Shown here: in pieces, positions 9,847-43,441 of the stretch
How positions within the stretch are numbered: the first letter of the stretch is position 1
How the letters are laid out: every line of letters starts with the position of its first letter
Source: Todiramphus chloris collaris
Taxonomy: Eukaryota; Chordata; Aves; Coraciiformes; Alcedinidae
NCBI GenBank assembly: GCA_025345505.1
Contig: JANVCC010000071.1
Coordinates: 2,927,519-2,991,518, forward strand
Length of the DNA stretch: 64,000 nucleotides
Direction: 5' to 3'
Notes under the pieces: generated by a model
Told to the model about the DNA's origin: nothing
The model's input: only the letters and a program-made list of their open reading frames with translations
Database searches by the model: none
Position numbers and translations under genes: made by a program

Positions 9847-9869
9847 GAATGTGGAGAGAAGGTCAAGAG

Positions 9870-10870
9870 GAGGTAAGGTCAGAGGGGTCTCTCGGGCTGT
9901 AAAGAGAGAGCAAAGCCCCCCTGACCCCTCTGGCAGCGCAAGGGCACCGGGAGCACGCAGTCGGGAGCGCAGGAGCGCGCGGACGCGTGCGCACCCGAAC
10001 GAGCCGCCCGAAAGAAGTTACCAGGGTGGGGGAAAGGGGAGAGGAGGGGAGAAAAAAAAAAAAGAACTGGGCGGGGGGAGAAGAGAAAAAAGCCGAAGGA
10101 AAGTCCTGCAGCCTTTTTGCCTTGTCAGTTCTCCGTCTGCTGTCACTCAGGCGCCGAATTCTCCTTCAAGTTGTCATAGCGAGGCTGGCGGGGATTATGC
10201 CGAGGCTCTGTCCAGAATTGATTCATGTGGAACGCGTGCTTGACGAGCGGAACCGCTGGTGTGAGCGGGAGCCGCTGAGACCCCCTATTTTCCCACCTTC
10301 CTCAGACAATCTGGTATTGTTTGGCCACAGCCTTAGTGATCCCTGCGCCGGGGCTGTGACTGACACAGCTTTGAGGCTCTAAGGCGTATTTTGAATTTCT
10401 AAAACCTCTCAGGAAGTCCCCGGGGTGCCTTCTGCCATTGTCTTGTTTCTCCTTTCGCCTTTTTCCCTTTCCACCCCGAAACCCCTCCCGCCTCCCCCCC
10501 CGCCTCCTCTTTTTTTTTTTCTCCTTCCTCCCCCTAATTCCGGGCCCTACAATCCCCAGCATAACCTGGGTTGGGTTTTTTTTTCCTCTTCTTTCCCCCC
10601 CACCATGTTTACGCTCTGACTCTCTCCGGAGCTGCTCAGCCAGTTCACAAACATGATTTGAAAATAAATAAATAAATAAACTAAAAGAAAAGAGAAAAAC
10701 TAAATAAAGCTCTGAAAGTTCCCAAATCCTCGACCCGCTGTGGAGAAGAAGGGCTTTACTTGTTTGCTTTTAATCAGTTGACACAAGCCCTGAGTTGTGT
10801 TGGAAAAATAATAATAGAAATAAATCCGTCACCTAATCTATCGCCGTCCTGCTGCCCGCTCTGGCCGTTC
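9870..10870. other. Intergenic stretch, no gene recognised
   Basis: Contains a G/A-rich segment (10020-10110), an island with mixed composition at 10115-10330 that may be a conserved element, pyrimidine-rich DNA (10440-10610) and a short AAAT/AATA microsatellite near 10660-10685. No coding signal was found. Confidence 0.5.
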
Positions 10871-10878
10871 GTCCCTCG

Positions 10879-11065
10879 TGCATCCCTTCTCCATCCCTCT
10901 TCCATCCCTTGTCCATCCCTCTTCCAACCCTTGTGCATCCCTCGTGCACCCCTCGTCCATCCCTCCTACATCCCTCATCCACCCCTTGTGCATCCCTCAT
11001 CCACCCCTCATCCATCCCTCCTGCATCCCTCATCCACCCCTTTTCCACCCCTCTTCCACCCCTCA
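10879..11065. repeat. 11-bp minisatellite, 17 units
   Basis: Exactly 187 bp, reading as 17 consecutive 11-bp units of the form TCCATCCCTCT, TGCATCCCTCA or TCCACCCCTCA. Units vary mainly at positions 2, 4-5 and 10-11. The plus-strand ORFs through it (HPSSTPCAS-like) are artefacts of the repeat. Confidence 0.93.
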
Positions 11066-11259
11066 CCCAGCCCCGCTGGGGCCACGCGGAGGGACCGTCC
11101 CGCAGGATCCGGCCAAGGAGTTTCGGTCTCGGTGAAGCTTTTCCACCCAGAGCCCCTGGCCCAGGACCGGGCTGGCCCCGGCGCAGGCTCCGGGCTCTGC
11201 TACTCCCCTCCTTGGGTTCTCGTGTGCCGGGACCACCGAGCCAGCGCTGCCCCCAGCCT

Positions 11260-11480
11260 CTCCGGGGCTTGGCACTGTATAACCATTTCCCATTTCCAGT
11301 CTTAATCTTATAAGAATGAATTGAGAATGACCAGCGTAAATACACAGGTGCCACTGGGAGCAGAAACCACTCTTTAATCTCAGATATGAAAACAATTCCC
11401 TGCTCTGCTCGCTAGCAATCAGCAAGTGCTATCAGTGCCGCGCTCTCCCCGGGAACAGGAGAGCTTATAAATATGAATTA
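11260..11480. promoter_or_regulatory. Candidate conserved noncoding element
   Basis: An AT-richer island with TCTTATAAGAATGAATTGAG, GCGTAAATACACAGG and AAATATGAATTAG segments in a GC-rich background. Non-coding. It is a possible distal enhancer of the downstream kinase gene or an upstream neighbour; inferred only. Confidence 0.28.
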
Positions 11481-12400
11481 GTGCAGAGAAAATCTACTCT
11501 CTTACCTAAAGCTAAATGTTATCTGGGTCCCTTTCCAACAGTGGCTGACATTTCCAGAGTGCTTTTAGTCACATCTGCGGGAAGACAACTCATTTCTTGG
11601 TTTAAAAAAAAAAAAAAGGAAGGAGAAAGGAAAGAAAGAGGAACTGGAGGAGCGGGAGGACAACGAGCGGCGGCACAGGGAGAGATGTTGCCTTTGTTCC
11701 AAGAGGGAAATGCTGGATGCTTGAGTCTCCTCCGGGAGTGGGGAGGTGATGGGTGGGTTCTGTCCTGGCATCCGGAGCTCACTGGGAAAAGGCTGGGGCA
11801 GCTGGAGCCCCGAGGTGCTGGCACCCCTGAGCGAGGCCTTGAACCGTGGGTGCTCCCGTCTGGGGCATCGAGCAGCTCCGGGGTGGCTCTGAGTTCTGCC
11901 ACCCCCCTGCCCCGGGTCCTGCCAGGGGGTGGATGGGGAATGAGGATCCCACCCTGGCTCCACGGCATCTGGACGGGGCAGGAGAGTATGGCCCAGGGGG
12001 ATGGGTACCCACAGCCCTGGCACGGACCCTGCTGGGTGAGGCCTCATGGAGGGTCTGGGTTCTGTAAGGAGGTGGGGGACAGCAGGTCCCCAGACACTGC
12101 CTCTGTCCAGGGTCTTGGTGACTCCTGGCCAGGTCACCTCAGGCACCCCTGGAGCAGCACGTGACAACCACGAAGAGCAGCAGGGGCTGGTCTGAGAGCA
12201 GGAATCAAATTGATGCTCAAGACAGAGCTGGGAGCATCCCTGGGGATGCCCCAAAAATAACGGGGGGTTCAGCACCCATGGCCCTGCACAAGGGTGGGAG
12301 GCACTGCCCTGCCAGAGCGGGGGAAACTGAGGCATGTCATGGGGAACATCCCTGCAGCCCTGGACAGGGAGATCTCTGGAGAGAGCACGAGGAAGGTGGG

Positions 12401-12440
12401 GATGGGATGCAATGGGATGCAATGGGATGCAATGGGATGG
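12401..12440. repeat. Short tandem repeat, 4 decamers
   Basis: Four consecutive 10-bp units of GATGGGATGC or AATGGGATGC type. Simple repeat, no function inferred. Confidence 0.85.
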
Positions 12441-13839
12441 GGGAGCCCCGGGCATCACCAGCAGCAGGAGCTCAGCCCCAGCATGGGACTTGCACCACTC
12501 CAGTGGCATCCTGTCTGCACCTCTCTCTGCCTCTCCCATCCTCCATCTCTGGGTACACGAGGGACCCCAAAAAGCTGTCACCGCGCACCAAAGGGCCCCG
12601 CACCTCCACGGGCTGGTGACGGGGAAGGATGCGGCCCCCACAGCGGGCGTACAAAGCCCATCCATCCTTCCTCACGGCTGTGATCCCTCGCTGGCCTCTC
12701 GTTGCAACCGTACTGGCGAGGGAAGGAACTACGGACGCCGCGAGTCTCTAATGGGATGCTTAAGCCGTCTTTTAGGTTTTTTTTAATGAGCGGTTCCTGG
12801 CAGGAATGCTAAAACATCACTAGGTAGACAGACCTGCTTCGCTGGCAGGCGGCGCGATGTGTTTCTGTGTCCTTGTCTGGCTTAAGTGAGCTCTGACCTC
12901 ATTTGCTTCGTGCCATTCAATTAACAAGGCGAGCGGCGCTGGGGAGGGGGGGAGATGCCGGGGGGAGTTTAACCGTATGTATTAATTTCCATTTTATGTT
13001 CCAAACAATTGAGCATCGCTCGGTGGTGTCTGGCTCCTCTCGCAGGTACCGTTCCCAGCCGCCGCTCTGCCCGGGCTGCGCTTTGCTGGTGACCCCCAAC
13101 CCAACACCGGGGTTTGGGGGGGCTTTGGGGGTCCCGCTGCAGCTTTACCCTCCCACACACCACCCAGGGATGGACCCACACCCCATGTAAACCCTTTGCC
13201 ACCCTCTGCTTCATGCTTTTCCAGCTTGCGCTTCATCCGGAACGTCGGTGGCTGCACAATAAGAGAGAAATGATTTGGAAAAGGGTAAAAGCGGGAGAGA
13301 AATGCTTCCCGGGGTGGTAAAAAAAGGGACTTCAGGCACCTAAATTTATGCTGCTCTAAAATGGATTTTATTCCAGTATAATGAGAGAACAAAATAATTA
13401 ATTCCTCTCCCGCAGACAAAAGGCTAGAGGCTTTCCTCCAGACTCGTCTTCCCACCGAGCCATTGGGAGGATGGACCCGTTCCTGGGGCAGCTCACCCGG
13501 TGCCAGAGCTGGATCCTGGGGGCTGGGTCTGTGCCCCAGGAGGGTGTCTGGCTGGGGACAGAGTGCCTCAAAGGGCAGCCCCCTCCTCTCGGGGCTGACG
13601 TGCTTCTGGGGCACTGGGGTGTGCCGGGGACCAGGGCTGTCATCCCAGCCCCATCTCAGTCTCCTGCTGACCAGGCTGGACCCAGCCCCACGCTCCATCC
13701 TGTGCCCACCCATGGGTGGCAGAGCTGGTGTCTGCGGGCACCAGGATTTCAGCCTAATCGCCGAGAGGCGACAGGAAGGGGCTGCCTCTGCCCTTCAAAC
13801 ATGGTCCCCAGCTCTTTTGGGGCTGGGGATGAACAGGGA

Positions 13840-14120
13840 GATTGTGCTTGTTCTGGATAAAGTGATAAATATTAATTATGCAAACCAGGCTCTCCCAGCC
13901 CACCCTTCTCCCCACAACATTCCAGGATGGGGACAAACAGAGGCAGAGTCAATTTATTCACTTAGCAGGTCACTCCCTTTAAGAGCATCCCTTTCAGAAG
14001 AGAGTTGCAATGAGACCAGATCAAGCAGGGCTGGGTTTGCCTCCCTCAGCTGTGATAAAATATTCTAATAAATACTTGGGAAGCCCATTACAAGCAGAAT
14101 GTTTCATGCCAGCGAGACCT
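13840..14120. promoter_or_regulatory. Candidate conserved noncoding element
   Basis: AT-richer, non-repetitive DNA with GATAAATATTAATTATGC, GTCAATTTATTCAC and AATATTCTAATAAATAC stretches, about 700 bp upstream of the CpG-island promoter. It contains several TAAT/ATTA cores. Regulatory role inferred; conservation not tested. Confidence 0.3.
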
Positions 14121-14749
14121 TCTCAGCGAGGCCTTTCATGTGGCTCTCCTGTCCAAGCCGTGGCACTGGGGGGCTGTTCAGCATTCTGGGGGCCCCACCG
14201 TCGGTCCATCCCATGCAAAGGGCCACTGCCCCATGGGATACTCTTTGTATTTCCAGGTTTTTAATAGAAAAACATAACGCTCTGCTCCTGGCTCACAGCT
14301 CTGGGGAGGAGGTCTTGAAAAAGAAGAAGAAACCTCCTGCTCGGGTCCCTTTGCTGCAGGAAATACAAAATCCCACAGGGCTCCCCGACAGCGCCAGCGG
14401 CCACGGGGTCAGCTGCACCCCCACCCTGCCCCCAATTCCACCCCAACTCCTTCCCCATCCCCAGTTCCACCTCAATCCCATCTCCAGTCTCGCTCTGTTC
14501 CTGATCCCAGCCTACTTCACCCCCATCCCTAATCCCAGTTCCATCCCAACCCCACCCCATGCCACGCCACCCTGTCGGTGACCCCATCTCACCCCATCCC
14601 CCACCCCACCCAAACCCCACCACTAATCCCCCTCCGCCCCTCCCTTCCCACCCCTATTCCCACCCCATCCCCTCAATCCCGCCCCAATCCCAGCCTCAGC
14701 CCCGCCCTGCCCCCTCCCCCCTTCTCCCCTATTTCACCCGCCCCCTCCC

Positions 14750-15600
14750 CACCGCCCCCTATCCGGTGGGCGACGGCGTCACCGTGCGGCAGCGCCCGGC
14801 AGCGCCCGCGGCCACCCGGGGCGGGATCCGGCCCTCGGGACCCGGGGCTGGGTACCCCTCAGGGCGGGGCAGGATGTGGCCCCGCGGGGTTGGCCGCAGG
14901 GCTGCGGGAGCATCCCCGGGATGCGGGGCCGGATCGGTCCCTGGGCTCCGGGTGCTCCCTGGGGAGCGGGGCTGGACCCGGTGAGGAACACACGCCTTCC
15001 CCCCACCCTCCACTTAGCCACGGGGCCGAATCCTGACGCTGGGTGCCGGGGAGCGGCTGCTGCGTGTTGCGGGGACCCGGGATCACCCCGCGGAGCGCGG
15101 CCCGGAGCCCCGGGGGGCTGGCGGGGCCCGGTGCAGTGGCGGCGGTGGCCGAGGGGGGGCACGGCCGAGCCGGGAGAACGAAGCCGAGCGGGGAGGCTGC
15201 CTGGGAGGGTCCCCGAGCACCGCAGCCCCGGCCCCGCATCCCTGCTTTCCGGCTGCCCCGCGTTCCCGCAGCCGCACCTCCTCCCATCCCTCCGTCCCCG
15301 CGCTGCTCAGCGCCCCGCTCAGCCCCGAGAAGGAGCTGATCCTCAACCCCCCGGCCCAGGGGCTGCCCCCCCGGCTGGCAGCACAGGCCCCGGGGAGACG
15401 GGGAGAGGGTCTGGAGGGGGGGAGCTGCCGCCGGGCTCCTCGCCAGCACCCCGGGGTGCGGGGGCTGAGCAGCACCCGGCAGCCGCAGCCGCTGCGAGCC
15501 GGGGATGAGGCAGCGCCGAGGGAGACGCGGCTCCATCACCCAGGGACGCCGCGGCTGATGGTATGTGCTGGGACCCCCGGACCCCAGCGGGACATCAACG
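14750..15600 (+). promoter_or_regulatory. CpG-island promoter and probable 5' exon of the CaMKIV-type gene
   Basis: Dense CpG sequence beginning where the C-rich simple repeat ends, with no other gene nearby to claim it. A good splice donor, ATG followed by GTATGT, lies at 15560/15561. A polypyrimidine tract and CAG acceptor at 16081-16092 precede the first coding exon. I infer a 5' exon ending at 15560 joined to 16093. No TATA box is evident, as usual for CpG-island promoters. Transcript data would be needed to place the start site. Confidence 0.55.
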
Positions 15601-16122
15601 GGGTTGCACCGAGTAAGGGGCTGGGGGGGGGGTCCCCGCGGCGGGAGGTCGCCCCCCCGGGGCCGTGGGTGCGCTCAGGGGCAGGCTGGGTTTGGGAGTG
15701 ACTGCAGGAATCGGGGTGTAAATAACCCAGCGTGCCCATCCCGGGGGCACAGCCTGGGCTCCGGGTGTGGGGTTTGACCCGGCGGGCTCTGAAAAGCTGC
15801 GGGAGCCCCAGAGGGGTGGGAATGGAAGCGAGGGGAGAGGGGGGGCGGGTCGGGGGGGGGGGGCGCTGGTGTGAAAAGCTGGAGAGGACGCGCCATGGTG
15901 GGGAGGGATTAGCTCCAAAAGGCAGCGGACGTGCCTGGTGGGAAGGAGATTTGTGGTTGCGACTTCGTCGTGCCCAATAATCCCGAGCATTGCTTTTTAC
16001 TGGGCCATCTGGGTGCTGGCACGTGGCGGGGGGGGCGTATCGAGGCGGGGGGGGGACACCGTGGCGATGCCCAGGTCTCTTTTTCCAAGCAGCTGGCAGG
16101 AGCTCATTGCCCCCGGCCCACC

Positions 16123-19100
16123 ATGCCCTCCTCCAACACTGGCAGCGAGTACTGGATCGATGGGTCCCACCGTGAGACAGCCCTGGAAGATTTCTACGTC
16201 GTGGGCCCTGAGCTGGGACGGTACCGGCTGCTGGGGAGGGGTTGGCAGGGGCTGGAGGGGGGAGGTTCCAATCGGGGCAGGGGCCATCAGAGCTGGCACG
16301 CCAGGTCCCGTGGGTGCTCGGTGCCATCTCCCAGGGCTGCCAGGAGACACGTGTTTTAAACCCATGGGTCTGCACACGCTGCCCTGGTGTCACCATCCTC
16401 GGCGGCAGCTCGACCCCTTTCCAGCCCTCAGGATGCAGCATCCAGGGAGCCCAGGGCTGGTGCCAAGTGCTCATGGGCCCAGGAGGCTGCTGGTGGCCCA
16501 GAGGCCACAATGCATCCCAGAGATGGCCAGGCCCACGTCCTGTGGAGGGAAGTGGCAGCTCCCAACTGGAGCGTGGGTGTCAAGGGGCAACTGGTGTCCC
16601 GGTGCCCCCAGGGCCAGGCAGTGGGGTGCAAAATGGTGCTGGGATCCTGCTTCCAGAAGGTCTGATGGATTCTTTGAGGAGGGGTCTGGGCAGTGCTGCC
16701 CGCTGAGCCCAGGCTCTGAGGTAACTGGTTTTGGTGGTGATGGTTCAGGCTGCTTCAGCCCCTGCTGTCTCCATTGGCAGGGGGAGGTTTTGAGCCTAAA
16801 ACCCATCAGCTTTGGTAAAAACAGGTATTGAAAGCTTCTTACTGAGGTGTGGCCGTTGTCAGCCCAGGGCTCAGCAGCACGCAGCCCTGCTCAGACAGAC
16901 ACGGGACAGAAGGACAGACTGAACCCCCGGATCCCCTTTCATCCCTCCATCCATCCCGCCTGCGGATTGGCACCATCCTCCCCCTGGGCCAGCCCTGGCA
17001 CTTGGCAGCCTGCGGGTGCCCCAGCCACGGGTCCGGGCGCTCTCCACAAATCCCATTGTTCAACATTTTCCAGTTCATCTGGAAAGCAAATGCAATTATC
17101 TCCTGCCGCAGTCAAGGTTGATTGCGGGTATTTATTCGAGGCCTTAAGCAGCGGCGAGCGGCTGTAGCGAACGCCGGCGTGAATCCGGCCGCTGCCCTAA
17201 CTGGGAAGGTGTGAGGGGTGGGCAGCCGGTGCTGTGGGCACAGTGGGCTGCCCAGTGCCCGAGGAGAGACCCTGGTGTCTCCAAAACGCCGAGCCAAGGG
17301 TGCTGAGCAAGCCTGTTAGTGGCAGGGATCAGGCTGCAAATTGCCCGTGCAGGGGAAAAAAATCTGATGGGAGGATGAGAGATGCTGGGTCCAGGCTGGG
17401 ATTTGTCTGTGGCGAGGGGCTGGGAGGAGGATGAGTGGCCTGGCAGCCCTCTGCCTGGGCTGGTGGGGAAATTAGGGTAGCAAGGTGGTGGCAGAGCAGA
17501 GTGATGCTGCATTTGGGGATGGTGCCCGCTGGGAGCTGAGCCCCGGCTGGGGCAGGGCTCTGGGGGAGCTACCAGGGGTTGTGATTTTTTCCTCCGTGGG
17601 AAGCACGTTATTGTTGCAGCAGCAGCAGCGATGCCATTTTGGGTTCAAACAGAAGCCTTTTGCTCATCTTCCTGAGCAGGAGACGGTGGTGATGGTCACT
17701 CCCAGCCCCTCCCAGCCAATGCCATTTGTTTACAAATCGCTTTGCTTTGGCAAAACAAAATTTCGCAGAAAATGTTGAGCAAAAGGAAGAGAGGGGTTTG
17801 AAAACAGCCGAGGAAGGTCTGGAATTGCCAGATTTTGCTCACCCCGCAGCACCCCCAGGCCCTGTGGTACCTGGTACCCGGCTCTGCCGTTGCCATGGGA
17901 ACGTGATTCCCAAGTTCAGCCGGATGAGTTGCAAAATCCGCTCTCGTTTTTCAAGCAAATCTCTCTTTCCCGAGAGCACCCCGGGGAGCGCCGGCAGCGC
18001 CGAGGTTTTCAGCACGCGGGGCTGCAGCGAAAGGTCACCCGCAGCCACGCGCTGGGTTGGGCACGGCCTTGGAGGGGGCAGATTTTGGGGACAGAGGATG
18101 GTATCTGGGTGCACGGGGCTGAGCTGTGGGGTGCTGGTGCCAGCCCAGGCTGAGGGCACAGGCGTGCTGGGTGCCTGGAGACAGAGCCTGAACTCACTCC
18201 CAGAAGATGGTGAAGCCAAAGAGCAATAAAAGGTGGTTGATTACTCGGAGGTGAGATTTAATCTGCTCTGAGGAGCCAGGCAGGGAAGATGGAATTGCAG
18301 ACGAGCCCCATTAATGCCCAGCAGCAATGGGCTGATTTCACTGTCCACTGGTTAGAAAACGTTATTAACTAGAGCTAAAAATCCCCGGCAGCTGAGGGGC
18401 ACTGCTGGGGCTGAACGGGAATGATCCCCGTGGAGCTCGGAGCAGTATAAGCTGGCAGGGAGGTTTTGTGGTAGTGCAGAATCGCCCCGCATGCCGTGGC
18501 CCTGCCAGGGACAGGGCTGGGCTGGGGACCCTGGTGGCATCGGTCCCTGCTGAGGTTGTCCTTGTGACTGCAAGTGGGGAGAGGGAAGCTCCATCCTGTC
18601 GGGAAAGCTGCTTAAGGACTTAACCCCCCTGTAAGACTCAGTTTTAATTAAAATGGCTCTACCCAGGAAAGCTGGGAATGATGCAGGGAGGTGGGGGGGT
18701 GCAGGAGGAGGGGGCTGCAGGCTGAGCACCCAGGGCCTGGCGCTGGCAAACAGGGGGTGTGGGGGGAGCAGGACCCTTCCCCATGTCCTCACACCCCCTC
18801 TGCCCTCCCCCAGGGGAGCCACCTCAGTGGTGTACAGCTGCCAGGAGAAGGGCACGGGCACCCCCTACGCTGCCAAGATACTGAAGAAGACGGTGAGTGG
18901 GAGTGGATGGGGGGGCTCTGCTCGACTCCCAAAGTGCCTTGGCACCAGTGGAGAACTGGGATGGGGATGGGGAAGTTGGCCAGGCATCAATCCTGTGGTC
19001 TGGGGCTCCCAAAGGGACAGAAGATGGGTGCTGGGTGCGTGAGAGGGGTCTCTGCATAGTGTGGGGCTGGACACAGACACAGCAGCAGAGGTTAACACCG

Positions 19101-22100
19101 CTTCCGTGTGGGCTCTGCTTTCCAGATCGACAAAAAGATCGTGAGGACGGAGATCGGGGTCCTGCTGCGGCTTTCGCACCCCAATATTGTGAGTACGACC
19201 CCTCGGGAAGCCCCACCTGCACCCCACGTCCCCTCCCTGCCTTGCAGACAGGCTCGTGGGTGCCCAGTCCTTGCTGGGGCCATGGTGGCTCCCCGGCTCG
19301 CTGCCACATGAAACTCCTGCTCCTTGCAGCACCTTTGAGCTTCATGGTTCTGATATGGAGGGCTGGCCCCTCCCCATCCTCCCCTCCCCATCCTCCCCTC
19401 CCCATCCTCCCCTCCCCATCCCCTGCCCCGAGATTTCCATTCGGTAAGCAATTTCCATCGAGGAGATCAAATGAATCCCACAGAAAATTGCCCTTCTGTA
19501 ATGAATCCTGCAAGGGGAGATAAAAGGGGAGGCCGGGGCCGCGGGTGCTGGGTGCCGCATCCCCCGGCCGCCCTTTCTCCGTGCTCAGCGCTCGGGGGGA
19601 TAACGGCAGCCGGGCTGGAACGATTCGCAACGCCCGGGAGCGGATCCAATCGCCACGGGTGTCAGCAGAGCCGGGGCTGCCACCTCGGCCCCTCCGTGAT
19701 GGGCAGCGGGCTCAGGGGCTCCGAGCTCCCCGTGCCCGCCACCTGCTACAAAAGGTTTATCCCCGGCTGCTTAGTTCCACCAGCAAATTGCAAAAGCACC
19801 TCCGAGGTGACCTGAGGTAAAGGAATAACACAAAAAGCCACCTGGCAGCTGCTGCTGCTGCAGTGCCAGGGGAAACGGGCTCTGCACCAGTTGGTTCCAG
19901 GGCTGGGACATCACCGGGATGTGGTTTCGCTGCTATTGGGTTTTTTCCTAATATGGCTCAAAATAGCAGCTTCCAGCCCAACCCATGCTTGGAGCGATCC
20001 GGGCTGGCTTTCTGGAGGAGCCCCACAGGGACATCTTGCCCCCCCTTGTCGCCAGGAGAAACCTTGATGCAAAAAGATGAAGTCAAGAGAAGTCCAAACC
20101 GTCCCAAAAATGGGGACGAGCAGGGAGCTGGGGTGTCCCTAAGCCCCGGGGCCAGCTCAGAACGCGCCTCTCTTGGGGTGTTTCAGCATTTTGAGGCACT
20201 TCAGCTTTCCTCACGGAGAAACCCACACATCTGCCAGCACATCTGGGCAGACAGGGACGAGAGCCGGGGTGGGGATCACCCGCTCAGAGCAGCTCAGTGA
20301 TGCCAGCCACGGATGGGCAGAGGCTCCAAAAACACAGCAGAAACCCCATTTTCTGCCCCCCTCCTCTGCTCTCCTTGAGGAGGAGGAGGAACCACAGCCG
20401 GGCAATTTTCCTGCTGGGATCACCGAGTTTTCCATAGGGTTCTGTTCACTGCCCCGGTTCAAGTGGCTCTTGAGGAAGAGCGGTGCCGGTGCCGCCTGCG
20501 CGCTCGCTATCGTTCGGCACCCACCCTCGAGAGCGGGTGATAATAGGATTGTAAACTTTTGAAGTTAATAGGAAAATTATAGTGCTTCTGTGTATTATTA
20601 TAATGCAATAAGCTGCCACATAGTGTCTCTCACCCTGCGGGGTATCGTGGCTTGTCACCCAGCCTAGGAAGGTAATGATTAAAGCCCCATGAAATTCGCA
20701 GTGTCACAAAAGTCCTGAGAAGCATGAAATTCTCTGTTTTCCATTAAAAAAAAAAAATAAAATAAATAAAATAAATTGCATTTTGGTGTAGGTTGAAGGG
20801 ACCTGTTAATCCCAGCTCTGCTGCAGAGGCACAAAGGTCTCCTGCAGATGAGCTCACCTCATCTGGGAGCTAAAAAACCACAACTCGAGAGGAAACCACG
20901 GTCCCTTTAGTGCCACCCCAGTTTGGGGCATCCCCAAAACGACTTGCGGGGTCCCAGAGCCCCGGTTCCAGAGGTGGCTCCGTGCACCCCTGTGGCATCC
21001 GCCAAGGGCTGGGCTTTGCTGGGGTCACAGCCGAGGTGCCAGTGTGGCCGATGAAGCTGCAAGATGAAAGAGTTTGGTGAGCTCATTCTCCCGGGGATGT
21101 GAAGAGGTTATGGGCACCACGTGCCCGTCTCTTCCCATTCCTAGCACCATCTTTACTGTGCAGTTTGGCGAGCAAGGCTGCTGCAAACAGTTTGTAAATA
21201 AATAACTAAAATCACATTCAAAGAAATACAAAGGCCCAGAGGGAAAGATGGTGGCTGCCCCGATAAACCCCGGAGAGCCCGGCGGGCGCACGCTCTGCCC
21301 AGCGCAGCCCCCCCACCCACACCCCTCCTGTCGCCCCTTTCAGATCAAGCTGAAGGAGATTTTCGAGACGCCCACGGAGATCGTGCTGGTGCTGGAGCTG
21401 GTGACGGGTGGGGAGCTCTTCGACAGGTACGCCCAGCCCTGCGACCCCCCACCCCGAGGGAGGATGAGGATGGAGGGGGACGGGGGGAAGGCTGATGCCC
21501 GCCGTGGTTGGGAGATGGGGGGGTTTGGGAGGGGTTGTGTGGGGCAGGGTGCTGACCCCTGTGCCCGCAGGATCGTGGAGAGGGGTTTCTACAGCGAGCG
21601 GGACGCGGCGCACGTCGTCAAGCAGATCCTGGACGCCGTTTTGGTAACGTGCCCTCGGTGTGTGTATGTGTGTCCCCCCCCAGCCCCTGGGGACGCGTGG
21701 GGCTCGGGGATGCCACTGCCCATCCCGGAGAGCCCTGGGGAGCGGGGTTTGCTCGCTCACTCTTGGCCCTCTGAAGGTGTCGGTGGGGATGCTGCCTCTT
21801 CTGCTCCTTGTTTGGGGGGAGGGAGGAGAGGAGGGAGGAAGGTCAGCGCTGCTCTACATCACAGGTCTGCTGGAGACGGGGTTTCTATGGCAACGGGAGG
21901 GTTGGAAAATAGGAATTCATAACAGGAAACGTCCTTCCCGTGCCCCCCGCGGCCGTGCCGGCAGCTCCGGCACCGCAGGTGTTGGGTGTTCCCAAAGGAA
22001 CAGTCGGGCGAGTTGGTGCCATGGTCATGCCGGGTCCCAGCTCGCTGCCACCTCCTCCCGAATTCTGTCTGAGGCACAGGGGGCTTCCCCTGCCCCTTCC

Positions 22101-23816
22101 CCTCCATCCCACATTGCTCTTTCTCTCTCTGCCTCTCCAGTATTTGCACGAAAATGGAGTTGTCCACCGTGACCTGAAGCCGGAGAACTTGCTCTACGCC
22201 GACCTTTCCCCCGACGCGCCTCTTAAAATCGGTGGGTTTGCCGGGAGCCCCACGAGGAGGTTTCGTGGCTGGAGGGGGGGGGTTAACAGGTTCCTCTCCC
22301 CTCTGTGTCCCCCCCTCCAAGGTGACTTCGGGCTCTCCAAGATCGTGGATGAGCAGGACACCATGAAAACCATCTGCGGGACGCCGGGGTACTGCGGTGA
22401 GCGGGAGGGGAGAGCTGCGCGGGGTGCCCCGGGGAGGCAGCTCCCCACCCGAGGCCGCGCACAGCTCGGTGCAGGGATGGCCGACGGCTGCGCCGGGCTC
22501 GGGCGATGCTGCCGGAGCCCCAAGAGATGTTTCCTCTGCCCTGAGGTTCCCACACCTGTGTCATTGAACCCCAAAACTCTGCTTCCAGCCCCCGAAATCC
22601 TCCACGGGCGTCCGTACGGCCCTGAAGTGGACATGTGGTCCGTGGGCGTCATCGCCTACATCCTGTGAGTGATGAGATGGTGACAGCGAGGCACTTGGCT
22701 CCCCCTCAGCCCAGTGCCAGCAGCCAGTGAACACCAGCAGGGTGTTTAACCACCCCCCCTCCCCCCCAGTAGCTCCTCTCTCCTGTGCCCGCAGGCTCTG
22801 CGGCTTCGAGCCCTTCTTCGACCCGCGCGGGGACCAGTACATGTACGGCCGCATCCTCACCTGCGACTACGAGTTCCTGTCCCCGTGGTGGGATGAGGTT
22901 TCCCTCAACGCCAAGGACCTGGTGAGTGAGCCAGCGCCGGGGCCGGGAGCTGCTGAGCACGAAGCTTTCGGATCAGTGTCTGTAAAGATAACAGAACGAG
23001 CGGGATTTGACGGGTGAAGCCTTTTTTCTTGGTTACAGGTCAGAAAATTGATCGTCCTGGACCCCCAGAAAAGACTGACTGTCTACCAGGCTCTGGAGCA
23101 TCCCTGGGTCACCGGGAAAGCCGCTAAATTTGCTCACATGGACAGCACGCAGAAGAAACTGCAGGAATTTAACGCCAGGAGGAAACTGAAGGTACGGTGG
23201 AAAAGCCCCGTTACCCTGGGGGTGTTGGTGTGCCCTCCTGCAAACGGCTGCGGCCACTGAGAGCCGCTGGCACTGGGTTTTAAGGATCCCATGCCCCGAG
23301 CTGAAGAACGTTGATCAGCCTGTGGCAGCTCGGGGGGCTGGCTGGCATGAGGAGAGGGGTGAAGGCTGATGGAGCAGCTCCTTCCCCAGATGCATCCCCG
23401 GGGACGTGGCTGCTGCTGGGCAAAGCCTTGCCCGAGGAGAAGGGCTGCGCTTCCCAGCTCTGAGTGGCTGCAGGAGCTGGTGCCACCCCTCTTTCCGCAC
23501 GCTCCGGGGGCTCGAGTGCCTGGAGAACTGCCTCGAAGGGGGAAATCCGGGCGAGCACAGGCTACTAACAGCTCTCGCCGCTGTGCCTTTGCCGCAGGCT
23601 GCCATGAAAGCCGTGGTGGCTTCCAGCCGCTTGGGCAACCACGGGCACCATGACTGCTCCCGCAGCGGACGCAGACAGAGGGGTCCCCAGGGGACAGGGA
23701 CCGCCGTCCCCGAAGCCACCGCCACCTCCACCACCACTGAGGACCTCAGTGCTTTCCGGAGCGACCGTCCTGCCGTGTCTAAGGTTCCCGTGACCGGTGC
23801 CGGCTGCAAGAGCTAA
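16123..23816 (+). CDS. CAMK4L: Calcium/calmodulin-dependent protein kinase IV-like, 11 coding exons, 378 aa
   Basis: A Ser/Thr kinase of the CaMKIV type, expected to be switched on by Ca2+/calmodulin and CaMKK. Coding exons: 16123-16220, 18814-18892, 19126-19188, 21344-21426, 21571-21643, 22141-22231, 22322-22396, 22589-22664, 22795-22921, 23039-23191, 23598-23816. All joints keep frame with GT-AG sites and sum to 1137 nt. Visible features: CaMKIV-type YWIDGS (10-15), glycine loop (32-39), Lys54, alpha-C Glu68, HRD Asp143, DFG Asp164, activation-loop Thr183 in CGTPGYC, APE, and an autoinhibitory/calmodulin segment (about 290-319: NARRKLK then AVVASSRLG). Odd: Gly163 replaces the usual Ala before DFG. 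The tail after 319 is only 59 residues, Thr/Arg-rich, without the acidic tail of CaMKIV (human about 473 aa). The start has a good ACC-ATG context; an in-frame start at 15558 would add 11 residues. The symbol is informal. Very likely a CAMK4 ohnolog, not CAMK4 itself. Confidence 0.93.
16221..18813 (+). other. Intron 1 of the CaMKIV-type gene (between coding exons 1 and 2)
   Basis: 2.6 kb of GC-rich intron. I see no exon in it. An AT-richer island at 17035-17165 may be a conserved element. The rest is unremarkable. Confidence 0.7.
17035..17165. promoter_or_regulatory. Candidate intronic conserved element
   Basis: An AT-richer block with CCCATTGTTCAACATTTTCC, GCAAATGCAATTATC and GGGTATTTATTCG segments, including an octamer-like ATGCAATT. 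Non-coding. Regulatory role inferred from composition. Confidence 0.28.
19189..21343 (+). other. Intron 3 of the CaMKIV-type gene
   Basis: 2.2 kb intron with a 14-bp TCCCCATCCTCCCC repeat (19371-19420, about 3.6 copies) and an AT-rich island at 20535-20625 (TGATAATAGGATTG, GTATTATTATAATGCAATAAG) that could be regulatory. An A-rich AAATAA microsatellite lies at about 20745-20777. No extra exon recognised. Confidence 0.65.
19371..19420. repeat. 14-bp tandem repeat
   Basis: About 3.6 copies of TCCCCATCCTCCCC in intron 3 of the CaMKIV-type gene. Simple repeat. Confidence 0.85.
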
Positions 23817-25955
23817 CGCGCCCAGCATCGCCACGGCCTCGACAGGCAGTAGCCCGCGGACCCTCGGATGTCGGCACTGGGGAAACTTGGGGGGAGGGGG
23901 GGAATGGGGCCAGGAGCTCCCTGAGTGCCAGCGTGCGTCAGGAGGCTGTGGAGCATCCCTCTGTAGTGTCCTGTTGCCAGTGCAGTCGTAGCCGGTCGCT
24001 GTGAGCGTCTCTACGGACCCGCCTGGGGACTCGGTCTGCTCACGAATGAACCGTTTTAGCCACCACGGCTTGGAAGGATCCCAGGTGGCTTAAAACGGAG
24101 GAGCAAACAGGATTCCTTTCACCTTCCCTACAGAGGCAGTGAGTTGTCTGTAGGATGGAGTTGTGTAAGTTCCTGTAAATAGTCTTTTCAGGGTTTATTT
24201 GCTGCAGGGAGAAGGCGCAGCCGGATTATCTCCGCGCACCGACATTCCCTCCGCCGCTCCCAGACCCTGCCGTCGGTTACTGCAGGAGCCTTTGAATCCA
24301 GCTCCTCGATCCGATCCGGAGAGGACCTGTTTGCCAGCAGCTCCTTGATGATCTTCAGCAGGAGGTGACCTGCGATTCGTGCTTTGGTTCCTCTCCCATT
24401 CCCTCCGTTCCCACATTCGGTGGGTTCATGGCTGCGGGGAGGGGGTGTCAGGAGCGCCGGCTCATCCAGGTTCGGATTTCCACGAGGAGTTGTAGTGAAG
24501 AACAACGTGGCGCCTTGTAAGACTTCGTAACATGTACTGGTGCTGCTGTTTCCTGAGCAAGGACAAGGAGTTTTTACATATTCTGTGGTTTCGTTTGGGT
24601 TGGGTTTTTTTAAGAAGAATGAAATCAATCGACAGACTTCTTGAAAAGAGAGGTTTATTTAGTCAGTGATTTACCAAACCGGCAGATAAGCGATCGCGGA
24701 TTTTAATATTGACCAAGGAATCGGAGAGAAAAAGCCATAATCCATGGGGGGGGTCACAGAGAGCTGGGCGATCCAGCACCAGGTCCGTCGAGTCGAGGCA
24801 GTGACCGTGACCTCCACCCCACGCGCCGTGGGCCGGACACATGTAACCAATTCAGGCAAAAAAAAAGCTCAGCTGGAGGAGAAGGAAATTTATCCACGGG
24901 GTTCGTTTTTCCGGTGGTTGATGGAGGAGGGGCTGCCAAGGGGAACTGAGCTTGTGCTCCCGTTCCGGAGCCCAGCTGGGCACCTGCCACGGGGCAGGGG
25001 CAGGAAGGCAAACGTGATGCAGCCGCTCCCACCTCTGTTTACAGCACGAGCAAAACTTGTCGAGGCAGCGAGGAAAAGCTGATCCCCACCGTACAGAGCC
25101 TGTGGGTGCTCGGGGTCTTGCAAAGCCGAACACGGAGGAGAGATCGGATATTCAAGAGGGGTTTTTGAACTGGAAAAAGATCAAGCCTCGACCAGAAATG
25201 GGCTCTTTTTTTTGGTTTTTTGTTAACTAACAGCCATACCGTCGTCGGGGACGCAGCCTCCTCGGGCTGGAGGAAGCCACCGCCAGAGAACACTTGGAAA
25301 AGGGGAAAATCATTTCTTTTTCTTAGCATTTTGCAGGAGGGGATGTTGTTTGCTCTCCTTTTTTTTAATATATAGGGCTGAATTTCACAGCACACTCAGC
25401 TCCGGTCTTCATCCTGCGCTTGGGGTGCCACTCGTGTCCCTCAGACTCCGTGGTGTGTCCCCATTCGCTCCAGCAGGGCCAGAACTCGAACCATATTGTT
25501 TACTACTCTGGGTCTTAAAAGACTATTTTATATCCTTTGATGTGAAATGCTAAATTAAACGCCTCACAGCACCAGGCCAGGGTGCTCAGCATGCCTGGAG
25601 CTTGTGAAGCAGGGACCGATGCTGGGAACAGAGCAACGGGAGGTGTCAATTATGCGACAGTTAACGAAGGGTCTTCAGCGACCGACAGCACCCGAGGGAA
25701 AAGCTTCAGGAGAAAAAAATGGAGTTTGCCTCTTGTGTTATGTCAATGAAGTATTATTCCATAAATATCAGTACTTAAAGGTAGGAAAAACCTGTACTCC
25801 TGGGAGCAAAGCTGCTAGGAGACGCCGTGTTGGTCTGTATGCTCTTTTCAGAATGTGTTTTAATAACTTACTACTCGAGTACAGTGGTGATGTTTCTGGT
25901 ACCGCGGGTATTTATAAACAACTATAAACAGCCAATAAAGTGTCAAACATCCCAA
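23817..25955 (+). other. 3' UTR of the CaMKIV-type gene
   Basis: About 2.1 kb after the TAA stop with no downstream exon, ending near the first canonical AATAAA (25934-25939). The length is plausible for a kinase 3' UTR but inferred; earlier cleavage is possible, for example near ATTAAA at about 25553. A 146-codon antisense ORF (24188-24628) lies in it and has no recognised similarity. Confidence 0.6.
25934..25939 (+). terminator. Poly(A) signal AATAAA, CaMKIV-type gene
   Basis: Canonical hexamer followed about 15-25 bases later by GT-rich sequence, and then by a CR1 element. It is the last such signal before the PWWP3A promoter. Confidence 0.6.
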
Positions 25956-27786: not shown

Positions 27787-30700
27787 ATGACAGATCCCAG
27801 CTACGTTCTATGCATGTGGAAGAAGCGTTTATGGCCAGCAAAGGTAAAGCAGGCTCACAAATGAGGAAAGGTTTGTGGATGTAACTTGGAAATAGATGAA
27901 ATGGAGCAGTAACTAAGAGCCCTGAGTAAACACTGGTGTGTCAGGGGGGTTGGAACAAGGTGATCTTTAAGGTCCTTTCCAACCCAAACCATTCTGTGAT
28001 TCAGTCTGTAATATACTTTCAAGAACTGATCTGCACAGATCCTCATCCTGCAGCCAGAGGCTGTGGAATACGGGTCTGTTCTGCACTGTTTGTGTTAAAA
28101 TGTTTTGCTGCCGGGTCTGTCCTGTAGTCCCACGGACTTAGCTGAGGATTTTAACCACGTGTTCTTCACTTGAACGTAGGTTTTGTGTCAAACTGGAGTT
28201 GCTGGGAAAACGTCAGTTACTCGTGCGAAGGAGACATCTTTAGAAGTTGAAATACTTGGCTTGAAAGAACAGTTGAGTATCCTCGTTACCATCCTATGTG
28301 TGTGCTTTTACTCCTTGCATAAAAAAAAAGGAAATAATCTCATTATCTGAAGATACATGTGAAGTGAGATCACTGATTTACACAAGGATTAGATGACTAA
28401 CCCAAAACCTGCTGCCTTTTTCGAGCTGGCTGGACACATCCACAGACACTGTGCTGGCAGCTCAAGTGTTCTTCATGTGGATTATTGGTTTTTTTCCCCT
28501 TAATTTCTGCTAAAAAATACAGGGTTTGTTGGGGGGAAACATTGCAAGCTTATTGCCAGCTGAGAGCAGCATGATGCTGTAGGTAGTTTAACGCCGTGAC
28601 GGTTTTCAGTCAGCTCTGTTGTGTTTTCAGGCTTCGTGTGAACTGTGCAGACGCTGAGCCACTGAAGAAGGAATGTATAGAAAAAATTGCCTCGAGCTTA
28701 GGTGAGGAGAGGTGAAAACTTTGGCTGCTTTGTCTGTATTCGGAGTGTGAAACACACACAAAACCTCAACCTGGGGGACTGGGGTTGTACGTTTGACTGG
28801 GGTTACCCACGTTTCACTGTGCCTCTCTGTATTTTGCCCTGAGAATCACAGATAATTTAAGTGTTAACCTCCATCTCAAACTATAAACACAATTTCTTAC
28901 CTTTTTTTTATATATATGAAGCAAGGTTATTGCATTTACTGCATATTCTTCTTCATCAGATCAAAGGAGTGATGAGAGTCAGGCTGTGGAAGAACTGAAA
29001 TATCGCCGGTCTCTTAAAATTGCCCTGGATATTTTGACCCAGAATGGCTCAGTCAGACAAGTGCTGCCCTCAGAAGGACCAAACACTCTGCTGTCCCAGG
29101 AGGACAACTTGGGATCTCCCTCATCTAATGCCTTACGTAGGCATCGGTCGATCTTTAAAGAAAAATTGGAGGCTGGAACTTCCAAGAAGAAAAGAGAACA
29201 AGAAGATAACCCCAGCGATACAAAAAAACAAACCCAGGAAGGTTCCTTTATTATGGAGGGGAGTGGAACAGACCCTTCCAGGTGTGGTACCAAGGACTGG
29301 GGCGACACAACAAACTCAGACAGTCAAACTGGGAAAACAGCAGACTCAAAATCACTACCCAGGCAGGAAAAAACCAAACCCAGATTGTTGACAAAATCCA
29401 AACCAGGAAATGAAGTCTCCCTTAAGCCCAAGGAGGTAAAAAATAAGCAAGGAAGACGACGACCAAGAGGTGCAGGGTCACCTGGAGCATGTGGGAGTGA
29501 CTCCCCCATGGATCGGGCGCAGTCCCTTGCTGAGGAGGGGTCTCCTACTCCTGTCACATCTGACACAGTGGTGCCTCTCGGGAGGGCAAACACCAGAGGT
29601 CAGCCTCGAAGGACTTCCCTGGATTCCTCATGTAAAAGTGCCTCGGAGGACTTGGGAAAAAGCATCGGTAGGGAGAGCAAGCGTCCGGCAAAGCCAGTAA
29701 ACGGAAGGAAAAAGCCAAAGAGTTTGAAACGACTGAATGGAGAAGAAGAGCCCAGAGGAACTGTGTCACCAAACAAAAAAAGGAAATGCAGGAGTTGCCC
29801 TGAACCTTCATCTGGGCCTTCTGAGCACGGGACTCTTCCGGAGAGCTTCCCCTCCCCACCGAATGAGGAGGACAAGAACAGCACCTCCCCCGTGGCTACC
29901 AGTAAAATAAAGCAGTTTCAGCTGCCTGACTTTGAGGAGGATGAAGGTGGGCACAGCATTTGGGGCAGGGAAAGCCTCCTCCCATCTGGTTGTCGAGCGC
30001 TGAACTCCTCGTGGGATGTTGCTTTTGGGGGTGATCTTAAATCACCAGGTTTCATTTTGGCTTGAGTTCTGGAGAAGCAGAAAACGCGGTGGGTTTGGTG
30101 CTTGGTGGGGTGTTTAGGATGGGAGTTGGTCAGGGGGTTGTGTTGAAATTCTCAGAGTAATTCCTACCCTTTACCACAGGCTCTAATTCCACCCTTTATT
30201 ATTTTTCTTTACTGCTCCCTAGTCCATGCTGAGGTGAGATGAAATGATCTCATGCTGGTGCACAGGCTGGTGCAGAGCCCTGAAAAGAGCCCATACTTGT
30301 TCCTTTCCCTTCTTTTTAATCCTGATTCTTAGGCCTTTCCCTAGACAGGGAATTAGTGTGTGGTGTGACAGACCCTGGTGTGGGGTGGCTCCCAGGTGTG
30401 TGTCTCACCTGCTCGGAAGCTGATCCTTCTTTAATCCCCATCCCACACTGGTGCTTGCTGCTGTTGGCAGGACTGGAACTGTCTGACCTGTCTTCGAAGA
30501 TTGTTTCCACGGAGACTGTGTCTCACCTCTCAGCTCTGTTAGATGAAGAGGAGGAGGATGAAGAACTGCCTCGTATTTTATCACCTCAAGGTGAGACACC
30601 CGTGTAGGTGTTACGAGACTTCTTCACCCGAGGCCGACGTGCTCTTCCAGTTTGCTGATGAGCCTTGGCTGTGAAACGTTTCTGGAAAGCGTTGGAGTTT

Positions 30701-33700
30701 TGTGGAAGCTTGGAATAAAATGCATTTCTTGGGTGCCCCAGAAAGGCTTTTTGAAACAGAATGAAAATCAAAGTATTGTCAAATGAGGCGAGGGCCTAGG
30801 ACTCAGATTTCCGAGTCCCTGTGCTCAGAACTATCTGTGCTGCCTCTCTGTGGGGAAGGGACACAAAACACCCTGTCACCTTAGTGGAAAACTGAAAGCA
30901 TTGGAGTGAAGCTCCTAGAGGGAGGTGGGGGGGGGGGGGGTGAGCTGACTGCTTTGTCTTGGTTTTGCAAAGAAAAACTACTTTCTTCTTCCCCACAGAG
31001 CCACAAGCGATTGAAGAAGGGATTCTGGTCTGGTGCAAACTGCGACGGTATCCGTACTGGCCAGCAGTGGTAAGAGCTGCCCACTGCTGTATTGCAGGAG
31101 CTGCTGACCCAGCTCCCTGGTTTCTTTGCCCTCTTAGACTCATGCAGAGCTGGAAATGTAGCTCTTCTAGCAGAAGCTTTCCAAATAGAAGTAAATTTAT
31201 ATAGGACAAAAGAAAAAAAAGGAAAATGTGGTGACCTCCCAGCTTTATACTGGGGCAGAGGATGATTATGAGTGTTTGCTTCTCGTGTCCTGAAGTAGGA
31301 CTGTTGTAGCTGGCTAATGAGAGAGAGGATGGGTCCCTGTGCCCTAACAAAAACACTCTGCTGGGGCAGCTCGCTATTCGTGCTGCTTTAAACTTAATTC
31401 TTCATATTTGTGTAACATTGAGGGAAGATGTCCCTGCTCTGTAAGGGTGTTGGGATTTTAGGAGGCTAATGTGGCTTTGTCCTTTTGCCAGGTGAAAACC
31501 GTGAAGCGGAAGCACAGAAAGGCCTATGTGCTGCTGATAGATGGGACTACCAACGAGAAGAAAAAAGGGTAAATGTTATGAATTTTGCTCATCTTCTGAC
31601 CTTCCAGTCTCTTACTGGCAGCAGCCTTTGCTCGTTTCCTGGTCTGGGGCAATTAGGGTTGTGAGGTCGATTCAATTAGGCAATTAGGTCGATGAAGTTT
31701 GATGGGAGGGAGGGAGGGACCAAGAGGGGTTTGAGGCAGGGGTGTGAGGCACTTTCTCTGCTGCCAGCTGGGCCAGGTTGGTGTCCTGGGAGCAGCTGGT
31801 GCTTGGGGGGAGCAGGAAAACCAGGGCTGGGTGCCCAGCTGGTGTGTTTAACATGTGATGCCCACACTTTCTGGAAACAAGCCTGACTTTAAGACCAGGT
31901 ATTCCTCGTTTGCTTAAAGATTCCGTAGTTTTAGCTTGTTAGGAAAACCAAAACTAAGAGAAGCCCCATTCCTGAAGAATTCTAATCTGCGGGGAGGTGG
32001 AAAATTGCAGTAAATAATAGAGGTGCGACTCGACCACCTCTTTCCCCTAACCACCTTCCTTTGTTTCATCAAGTTTCTCAGTACCTCTCAAGAATTTGAA
32101 GCACTTTGATTGTGAAGAGAAGCAGGACCTCATTGTAAGTACTGTGTGGGGAAACACGGCTGTACACACGGTGTGTAACTGGCCCTGCTGCTTGCTCTGG
32201 CTTTGCTCACCGGTCCCCATTACCTCTCACTCTATTCAACAGAGTAACTAAACACGCTTTGAGCTCTGCAAAGTGGAGAACAATATGGGAAGGGGGATCC
32301 CCAGACACCTTTTCCCATCTCAGAGCAGCTGCTGCCTGGAATACCCACGTGTGCACAAGGCAGGCAGCTGCTGGGGCCTCTCCCGGTGTTTTCAGGTCGC
32401 GAAGCCGCTCGCGCATCACGGGCAGAAGTTGAATTTCAGTAGAACGCAGGGAGCTTTGAGTGAACTTTGACTCGTTCTCCTTTGCTGTTTCTATCACCTC
32501 GTGAATGCCCGAGGCCTGAATCTTCAATCTCTTCAGGACTGTAAATGGGTCTTGTTTTGTAGGAACGAGCCAAAGAGGATTACCGCCAAGAAATTGAGTG
32601 GTGTATCCGACTGATTTCAGACTATCGAATTCGAGTAGGTAAGCAGATGAGCTGGGTGATGTCATCCAGGAAAAAAAGCTCCCACCAAAACTCACCTTTT
32701 GTTTCGTAGGCTTCACTGAACTGATAAATAACCCTGGTTTGGGCTTTTTAGGTTGCCATTCTTTTACGGGATCCTTCTTGGAATATTTTGCTGCTGATAT
32801 CAGTAAGTGAATCCGTTATCTTTGCGTTCTTCTCCTGGCAGGTAAGTTTAGCTCCTGTGTTTACACTTGTTCAGTGTCAGACCCAGTGAGGGCAACCACT
32901 ACAATCACTACACACCATTAGTGTTAAATAAAAGTTCAATATTGATTGGTAAAGGCAATCAGGTAACTGGTTTCTTTGCATTGTAGAGCAAAAACTTTTT
33001 CTCCCAAATCTTTTTTTTAAGGCAAAATTAAGTTTTTGGTGCTGAATTGTTTTGGTTTTGTTGTGGGTTATTTTGTTTGGGTTTTTTTAGGGTGGTGTTG
33101 GTATTTTTGGTTGGTTTTGTTTTGGCTTTGGTTTTTGTTGGTTTTTTTTACCCTCTTTGGTAGGGGAGGAAGAAAAACTTTGGTCTTCTCAAGAAAGTCC
33201 CTTATTTTCTATTTCTACAAGTATTTATGGGAGACAGCCCCTTGTTCTGTGCATTTTAAGTACGAATGATTATGACTTTCCTTTCAGGCTACCCAGTTAG
33301 GAAGGAAGGTCATCAAGGTTCGGTCCAAATGACCTTTCCAAACGAGGCAGAGGAAAACATCGAAGAGTCTCCATCAGAAACTTCACCTCCGAAGCCCGCC
33401 AAGAAACTTCTTCCTGACAGGTCAAGAGCTGCTAGAGACAGAGCGAATAAAAAGATAGTGGAGTTTATAGTGAAGACTAAAGGGGCCGAGGAGCATCTTC
33501 TGGCTATCTTGAAGAGCAGGAAACAATCCCGCTGGCTGAAGGAATTCCTGAATTCAAGCCAGTACATGACCTGTGTCGAAACCTATTTAGAGGATGAAGA
33601 ACAATTGGACCTCGTCGTGAACTACTTGAAGGAAGTTTATCGTGGAATAGATGCTAAAAATCTGCATCAGATAGGAGGGGATGGAATAAAACTGATCTCA

Positions 33701-34428
33701 GATGTCCTTCTGCCCGAAGTAAGTAAACACAAAAGGGGGAAAAGTAAACCTGTAAGTACATAGTGGTGTTTACTGGTGTTACTGGTACGTGGTTTGAGTT
33801 CAGTGACTTGTGGCATGTTCCCTGGGAGCTGGGGGGTGCTTGAGCAGCCTGGGTCACGGGGCTCTGAGCTTGAGGAGCCTCAGGCTGCGCTTGGTTCTGT
33901 GCATGTCTTGGGAGGGGAACATGAAAACTGGGGTGGGAGGCTCTGAAGCCACGTTCACGGGCTGGTGATCAGAGAATAAACGTGTTCATGGGATGCCTTG
34001 GAGAAATAAATTGGGCCCCGCTGTGGGTGCTGAACTAAATACTTTGCTAGGCCATCATCTATGCGATCTCGGCCGTGGATGACATCGATTACAAGAAGGC
34101 AGAAGAGAAGTACATAAAAGGACCATCTGTGAGCAAAAGGTATCTTGTTCTTTTAAGTATTTCCCGGATTTTTCTTACTGGTTTGTGGAAAAGTAAGGAT
34201 AAGGGCAGGAGAGTTCAGACAAGATTTCTCCTTGTCCGAGTAACAAAGACTTCCCCATGGGAAGCGTTTGTGCTGATTCTCTCTGACCTGCTGCAAACCA
34301 TTTCATCCACAGAGATGATTTTTACTCCAGAACCTCCCTGTGTCTTTTTCAGGGAGCGAGAACTCTTCGAGGAAGAAATTCTTGAAAGAAAGCAGCAGAG
34401 CAAAGTCCGACCCGCAGATGGCATCTGA
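27787..34428 (+). CDS. PWWP3A: PWWP domain-containing protein 3A (MUM1/EXPAND1), 13 coding exons, 752 aa
   Basis: A chromatin-associated, DNA-damage-response protein. Coding exons: 27787-27843, 28180-28271, 28631-28701, 28960-29946, 30471-30590, 30999-31069, 31492-31568, 32074-32134, 32563-32638, 32752-32802, 33288-33718, 34051-34139, 34353-34428; they sum to 2259 nt with every joint in frame. The N-terminus (YVLCMWKKRLWPAK) is the conserved family start. Exon 4 encodes a long, basic, low-complexity region with nuclear-localisation-like clusters. An acidic DEEEEDEELPRIL stretch precedes the PWWP domain (about 445-540: GILVWCKLRRYPYWPAVV, then GFSVPLKNLKHFD). The conserved C-terminal region includes LPDRSRAARDRANKK, WLKEFLNSSQY and AISAVDDIDYKKAEEKYIKG. 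The exon 2 donor is a weak GTTGAG; the nearby GTATCC would put a stop in exon 3. The start has a purine at -3. Confidence 0.95.
27930..28012 (+). mobile_element. CR1 3' end fragment
   Basis: A short truncated CR1 tail in PWWP3A intron 1: GGTTGGAACAAGGTGATC, AAGGTCCTTTCCAACCCAAA and a terminal ATTCTGTGATTC octamer-type end. About 80 bp. Confidence 0.85.

Positions 34429-36090: not shown

Positions 36091-39659
<3,569 letters not shown>

Positions 39660-40657: not shown

Positions 40658-43441
<2,784 letters not shown>

Follow-up and report, generated by a model that had tools for sequence, protein, structure and literature searches.

Does a bird genome hold a second CaMKIV kinase that human has lost, and if so, how did the two copies arise? 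The question is raised by a 64,000-nt stretch of the 1.17-Gb Todiramphus chloris collaris assembly (G000:C52:2927519-2991518, hereafter the window), in which a first-pass annotation recognized an intact 11-exon gene for a CaMKIV-type kinase and took it for a probable CAMK4 ohnolog absent from human 19p13.3. CaMKIV is a main connection between calcium signals and transcription in neurons and T cells, and CAMK4 is usually regarded as a single-copy gene. Our analysis makes it very probable that the window kinase is an intact, constrained CAMK4 paralog, that the CAMK4-APC-REEP block to which it belongs was duplicated before birds and mammals diverged, most probably in the two rounds (2R) of vertebrate whole-genome duplication, and that its counterpart is missing from the corresponding human interval.

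The exon model was obtained by direct reading of the sequence and scripted splicing. The gene lies at 16123-23816 on the forward strand, exactly where it had been placed, and its 11 coding exons join into a 1,137-nt coding sequence, open without an internal stop, that runs from an ATG at 16123 (context CCACCATG) to a TAA ending at 23816 and encodes 378 aa. All ten introns are of the GT-AG type. The motifs that had been quoted as CaMKIV signatures, namely YWIDGS, DKKIVRTEIGVLLRLSHPNI and the segment RRKLKAAMKAVVASSRLG, are all found in the product.

The protein contains a complete Ser/Thr kinase domain, which matches the Pfam Pkinase profile over its whole length (1-263) at 263.8 bits and in which the catalytic motifs HRDLKPEN, DFG and APE are kept. 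Comparison with PDB sequences (93 at E-values up to 1e-60, of which the best 60 were seen) returned two CaMKIV chains as the best matches, at 589 and 582 bits; among the matches listed, the best CaMKI-family chain scores 302 bits, about 280 lower, the best chain named CaMKII 264 and the best DAPK1 chain 247. CaMKI shares the calmodulin-dependent kinase architecture, but the window kinase is identical to human CAMK1D at 139 of 286 positions and to rat CAMK1 at 142 of 293. It is 81% identical to human CAMK4 (PDB 2w4o) and 79% identical to the ordinary CAMK4 of the same genome over the 311 columns common to four CaMKIV-type rows, and its catalytic, activation-loop and calmodulin-binding-type motifs are as in CAMK4. 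The activation loop MKTICGTPGYCAPE, at residues 177-190, fits the MKTxCGTPGYCAPE context, whose threonine we take to be the target of CaMKK, and the calmodulin-binding-type segment RRKLKAAMKAVVASSRLG, at residues 302-319 and thus C-terminal to the kinase domain, differs from that of human CaMKIV by one change. Given identity to a solved CaMKIV at 253 of 311 positions, the predicted fold is certain enough to be taken as that of CaMKIV.

The ordinary CAMK4 lies elsewhere in the same genome. A search of the assembly with the window protein (at least 112 matches; 109 of 392 candidates scored) revealed four CAMK4-type exons on contig C693, 76-85% identical to the query. With human CAMK4 as a guide, all 11 exons were located within the 200 kb of this contig that were examined (825 N inside), the last only at an E-value of 0.39. 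The resulting model (C693:12411455-12572691) encodes 376 aa, with the last exon ended at the first in-frame stop as a predicted 3' end, and contains nine GT-AG introns and one GC-AG intron after exon 10. Intron positions and phases agree with those of the window kinase at all ten sites, exons 2-10 are equal in length in the two genes, and length differences are confined to exon 1 and the last exon. Since the introns are all shared, the window kinase is a DNA-level duplicate, and a retrocopy origin was rejected because every intron is kept. The two genes differ markedly in scale and composition: the window gene spans 7.7 kb against about 161 kb, being roughly 20 times more compact, its GC content at third codon positions is 0.81 against 0.49, and its N-terminus is shorter by 17 aligned residues. 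Short exons on C22, C29 and C1 (71%, 67% and 63% identical), the most similar of the remaining matches listed, correspond to residues 96-146, which are well kept in CaMKI too, and are therefore read as probable CaMKI-type genes. The best match of that search, L001 (G000:C21:14859837-14860493; 47%), a CAMK-family sequence within a single 334-aa open frame, was set aside; it resembles PSKH1 and is presumably an ordinary kinase gene.

The residues that vary among the CaMKIV sequences give a first indication of the age of the duplication. Over the 311 columns, CAMK4 of C693 and human CAMK4 are identical at 287, the window kinase and human CAMK4 at 253, and the two bird paralogs at 245. All three agree in 242 columns. 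In 45 of the 69 variable columns CAMK4 of C693 matches human and the window kinase differs; in 11 the window kinase matches human and CAMK4 of C693 differs; all three differ in 10, and in only three does the window kinase agree with CAMK4 of C693 against human. A recent avian duplicate would be expected to have most of the changes of CAMK4 of C693 in common with it, not just these three, so the counts argue against one. In a six-sequence tree (LG+G4, CaMKI outgroup) the window kinase falls outside bird and mammal CAMK4 (approximate likelihood-ratio test 95.6, ultrafast bootstrap 98); nesting inside avian CAMK4, which would have pointed to a recent duplicate, was looked for in this tree and did not appear. 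The two rival topologies have p-values of 0.043 and 0.042 in the approximately unbiased (AU) test.

The genes that accompany the two kinases provide the main reason for calling the window kinase an ohnolog, in the form of a double conserved synteny. A genome search for APC repeats gave 13 matches, of which seven fall within a 2,206-aa open frame at C693:13.132-13.135 Mb (+) and five within one of 1,822 aa at C52:3.016-3.018 Mb (+); one weak match was found on C9 (E-value 0.16). The same search in 14 well-known microbial genomes, used as a control, matched in three of them, never above the cut-off. REEP-type domains were detected at six places in the genome, the two best being C693:13.180 Mb (-) and C52:3.028 Mb (-). 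C693 thus carries CAMK4(+), APC(+) and REEP(-) within about 0.77 Mb, and C52 carries the window kinase(+), an APC-type gene(+) and a REEP-type gene(-) within about 85 kb, in identical order and orientation. From their position we take the C693 genes to be APC and REEP5 and the C52 genes to be APC2 and REEP6. In human, CAMK4, APC and REEP5 form a block on 5q, and a wider 5q/19p13.3 paralogon is known. The APC/APC2 and REEP5/REEP6 pairs therefore resemble the two CAMK4-type genes in occupying the same two blocks in the same order and orientation. They differ in that human keeps both members (presumably so for APC and REEP5, and for APC2 and REEP6 according to the gene list of PMC4882821), whereas it does not keep both members of the kinase pair.

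Based on the above data, we propose that an ancestral CAMK4-APC-REEP block was duplicated, most likely in the 2R whole-genome duplications of vertebrates. One daughter block would have given rise to CAMK4-APC-REEP5, now on C693 and on human 5q, and the other to the window kinase, APC2 and REEP6, now on C52 and corresponding to human 19p13.3. Human would no longer have the kinase of the latter block.

The correspondence with 19p13.3 is drawn from the genes that follow the kinase. PWWP3A, announced downstream by the first-pass annotation, is indeed there on the forward strand: its C-terminal exon at 33260..33760 scores 146.6 bits with Pfam PWP3A-B_C, and an exon at 28920..30062 scores 27.0 bits with PWP3A-B_N, just below the cut-off of 27.4. 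An exon of NDUFS7 type follows at 37767..38225 (+; Pfam PF01058, 29.2 bits, cut-off 27). A reverse-strand exon at 40661-41281, in which Pfam found nothing, looks GAMT-like. MUM1 is the older name of PWWP3A. A published list of the human genes in a 19p13.3 deletion includes the run C19orf24, EFNA2, MUM1, NDUFS7, GAMT, DAZAP1, RPS15, APC2, C19orf25, PCSK4 and REEP6 (PMC4882821); between EFNA2 and MUM1/PWWP3A it contains no gene of the CAMK family, and the string 'camk' is absent from the main text of that paper. The kinase followed by PWWP3A and the NDUFS7-type exon thus identifies the window interval with 19p13.3, where the list has no such kinase. As far as this one list goes, human has no kinase of this kind at the locus, in agreement with what had been annotated, and no mammalian orthologue came to light there, human being the mammal covered. 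The list suggests that the kinase was lost in human, and the present genome suggests that it was retained in birds.

Part of the original argument for an ohnolog is not supported. The first-pass annotation had placed the gene between the 'EFNA2 side' and PWWP3A and had argued from an ancestral EFNA-CAMK4 pair. No coding exon was recognized among the 63 open reading frames of at least 120 aa overlapping window positions 1-15500, a list from which shorter exons would be missing. A Pfam Ephrin search (five matches), a query with an EFNA3-type exon from the same genome (six) and an ephrin-A5 query (six) all led to a cluster of three EFNA-type genes on C87 and to two genes of EFNB type, on C10 and C33; the two latter queries each added one chance-level match (E-values 1.77 and 2.72). 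By these three routes neither an EFNA2 nor an EFNA5 exon was found in the assembly, and no EFNA-type exon at all on C52 or C693, so that neither the EFNA2 flank nor the ephrin pair is borne out, and the paralogy argument rests instead on the pairs formed by APC and REEP genes. What stands of the claim of a CAMK4 ohnolog absent from 19p13.3 is the old duplicate, the paralogous block and the human list; what lacks support is its ephrin leg. These non-detections may reflect an assembly gap or a true absence. EFNA5 is normally highly conserved, and its non-detection would accordingly be either a gap or a surprise.

Several points besides the missing ephrins weigh against the proposed history. The Kishino-Hasegawa (KH) and Shimodaira-Hasegawa (SH) tests give p 0.059 and exclude neither rival topology at 5%, and both the resampling of estimated log-likelihoods (RELL) and the expected likelihood weights (ELW) leave the third topology, one of the two rivals, in the 95% set. 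The tree is built on six sequences, from this one bird and from mammals, and its CaMKI outgroup is very distant (stem branch of 1.2 substitutions per site). The C693 REEP match has one TAG within the matched stretch, perhaps at an exon edge. The choice of 2R over a later, pre-amniote block duplication is drawn from the paralogon. A genome search for the lamin-tail domain, in a vertebrate that should have lamins, gave no match and hence no further pair; listed here with the adverse points, it is counted neither way, because introns probably interrupt the domain. CAMK genes are unmentioned in the main text of PMC4042849, the paper cited below for APC. Because the outgroup is so distant and the KH and SH tests stop at 0.059, we regard the evidence that the duplication is older than the bird-mammal split as moderately strong.

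How much room does this leave for other explanations? A recent duplication of CAMK4 within birds or sauropsids, followed by a move to the 19p-like chromosome and accelerated evolution, would account for the coexistence of both genes in one genome, and the topology that joins them stands at p 0.059 in the KH and SH tests. Such a duplicate should not, however, be closer to human CAMK4 than to its sister in the same genome, nor share 11 sites with the former against three with the latter; its introns, all retained, rule out the retrocopy route, and transposition of a single gene would not bring along adjoining APC-type and REEP-type genes in the CAMK4-APC-REEP order. We consider this origin highly unlikely. 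A segmental duplication of the block, after 2R and before the bird-mammal split, fits tree and synteny, which date the event only to before that split. It is nevertheless improbable in view of the wider 5q/19p13.3 paralogon, and PMC4042849 treats APC and APC2 as a family of 2R ohnologues. Apart from the question of origin, the gene could be a decaying or silent copy whose open frame is accidental, as might be thought from the divergence of its tail, which matches that of CAMK4 at 9 of 38 aligned positions, and from substitutions near the active site, for example in PYAAK and KIGDFG. This has very little to recommend it, since the 1,137-nt frame and every splice site are intact, HRDLKPEN, DFG, APE, the activation-loop threonine and the calmodulin-binding-type segment are kept, and the differences from CAMK4 of C693 over 311 codons number 48, 33 and 195 at codon positions 1, 2 and 3. 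This concentration at third positions is as expected of a gene under purifying selection, and the window kinase is probably constrained. By the Nei-Gojobori method (NG86) dN is 0.139; dS was not computable and is taken as saturated, and no ratio is claimed. An intact and probably constrained ohnolog thus remains our preferred interpretation of the window kinase.

What would such a kinase do? By homology with CaMKIV, we infer a Ca2+/calmodulin-activated, CaMKK-phosphorylated Ser/Thr kinase; its activity, regulation, targets and expression, like its exact age, are in this sense predicted. Binding of Ca2+/calmodulin to the RRKLKAAMKAVVASSRLG segment would lift autoinhibition, CaMKK would phosphorylate the activation-loop Thr179 (MKTICGT), and the activated enzyme would phosphorylate Ser/Thr targets, such as CREB-type factors. 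The acidic C-terminal tail regarded as a CaMKIV feature is not present: the 59-aa tail of the window kinase is net basic (8 KR, 5 DE), as opposed to the acidic 41-aa tail of CAMK4 of C693 (3 KR, 9 DE). We do not take an acidic tail as a strict defining feature of CaMKIV, because the C693 model, with its predicted 3' end and apparently short acidic tail, already falls 87 residues short of the PDB chain of CaMKIV (463 residues). With such divergence between the paralogs, the tail is the most probable site of a change in location or partner.

With an intact second copy that seems to have been under constraint from before birds and mammals diverged, avian CaMKIV studies must reckon with two kinases, and the copy offers a clean natural experiment on the role of a second CaMKIV. 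Birds, and perhaps other non-mammalian vertebrates, could conceivably run two CaMKIV kinases that divide Ca2+-to-nucleus signalling, one the classical, acidic-tailed enzyme and the other, encoded by a compact gene, basic-tailed, the latter having been lost in mammals; we offer this as a tentative idea that is rather less likely to be right than wrong. If true, work on avian CaMKIV has treated two kinases as one. Among the literature titles listed, none describes a second CAMK4, and predicted 'CAMK4-like' database entries are to be expected. The double CAMK4-APC-REEP synteny within one genome makes the ohnolog claim easily testable in any vertebrate genome.

The coding exons, all on the forward strand, distribute the functional elements as follows. 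Exon 1 (16123..16220) begins with MPSSNTGSEYWIDGS, ends with ELGR and is followed by the donor gtaccg, its intron having the position and phase found in CAMK4 of C693. Exon 2 (18814..18892; 79 nt in both paralogs, as are the lengths given below) carries the glycine-rich loop GRGATSVVY and the lysine of PYAAK, and exon 3 (19126..19188; 63 nt) carries IDKKIVRTEIGVLLRLSHPNI. Exons 4 (21344..21426; 83 nt) and 5 (21571..21643; 73 nt) lead to exon 6 (22141..22231; 91 nt), with the catalytic loop HRDLKPEN, exon 7 (22322..22396; 75 nt), with DFG and the activation-loop threonine in MKTICGTPGYC, and exon 8 (22589..22664; 76 nt), with APE. Exon 9 (22795..22921; 127 nt) is followed by exon 10 (23039..23191; 153 nt), which holds the end of the kinase domain and the autoregulatory stretch to RRKLK. 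Exon 11 (23598..23816) contains the end of the calmodulin-binding-type segment (AAMKAVVASSRLG), the divergent 59-aa tail and the TAA stop.

A CpG-rich stretch at 14701..16200 (+), just upstream of the gene and overlapping exon 1, consists of five consecutive 300-nt intervals with a GC content of 0.62-0.78 and a CpG observed/expected ratio of 0.63-0.78. It is the longest such run within 12001-24600, shorter ones occurring inside the gene too, and we would guess that it is the promoter. Polyadenylation-type signals at 25554 and 25934 are likewise candidates by guess. The window also contains several tandem repeats. Minisatellites lie upstream of the kinase at 5989-6287 (periods 28/56/83) and 10873-11073 (period 55), and an array of a 33-bp unit at 9515-9839 (9.8 copies, 93% matches) is open in two forward and three reverse frames. 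A 34-bp tandem array at 51275-51440, with a run of 10 N inside, resembles a CR1 3' end.

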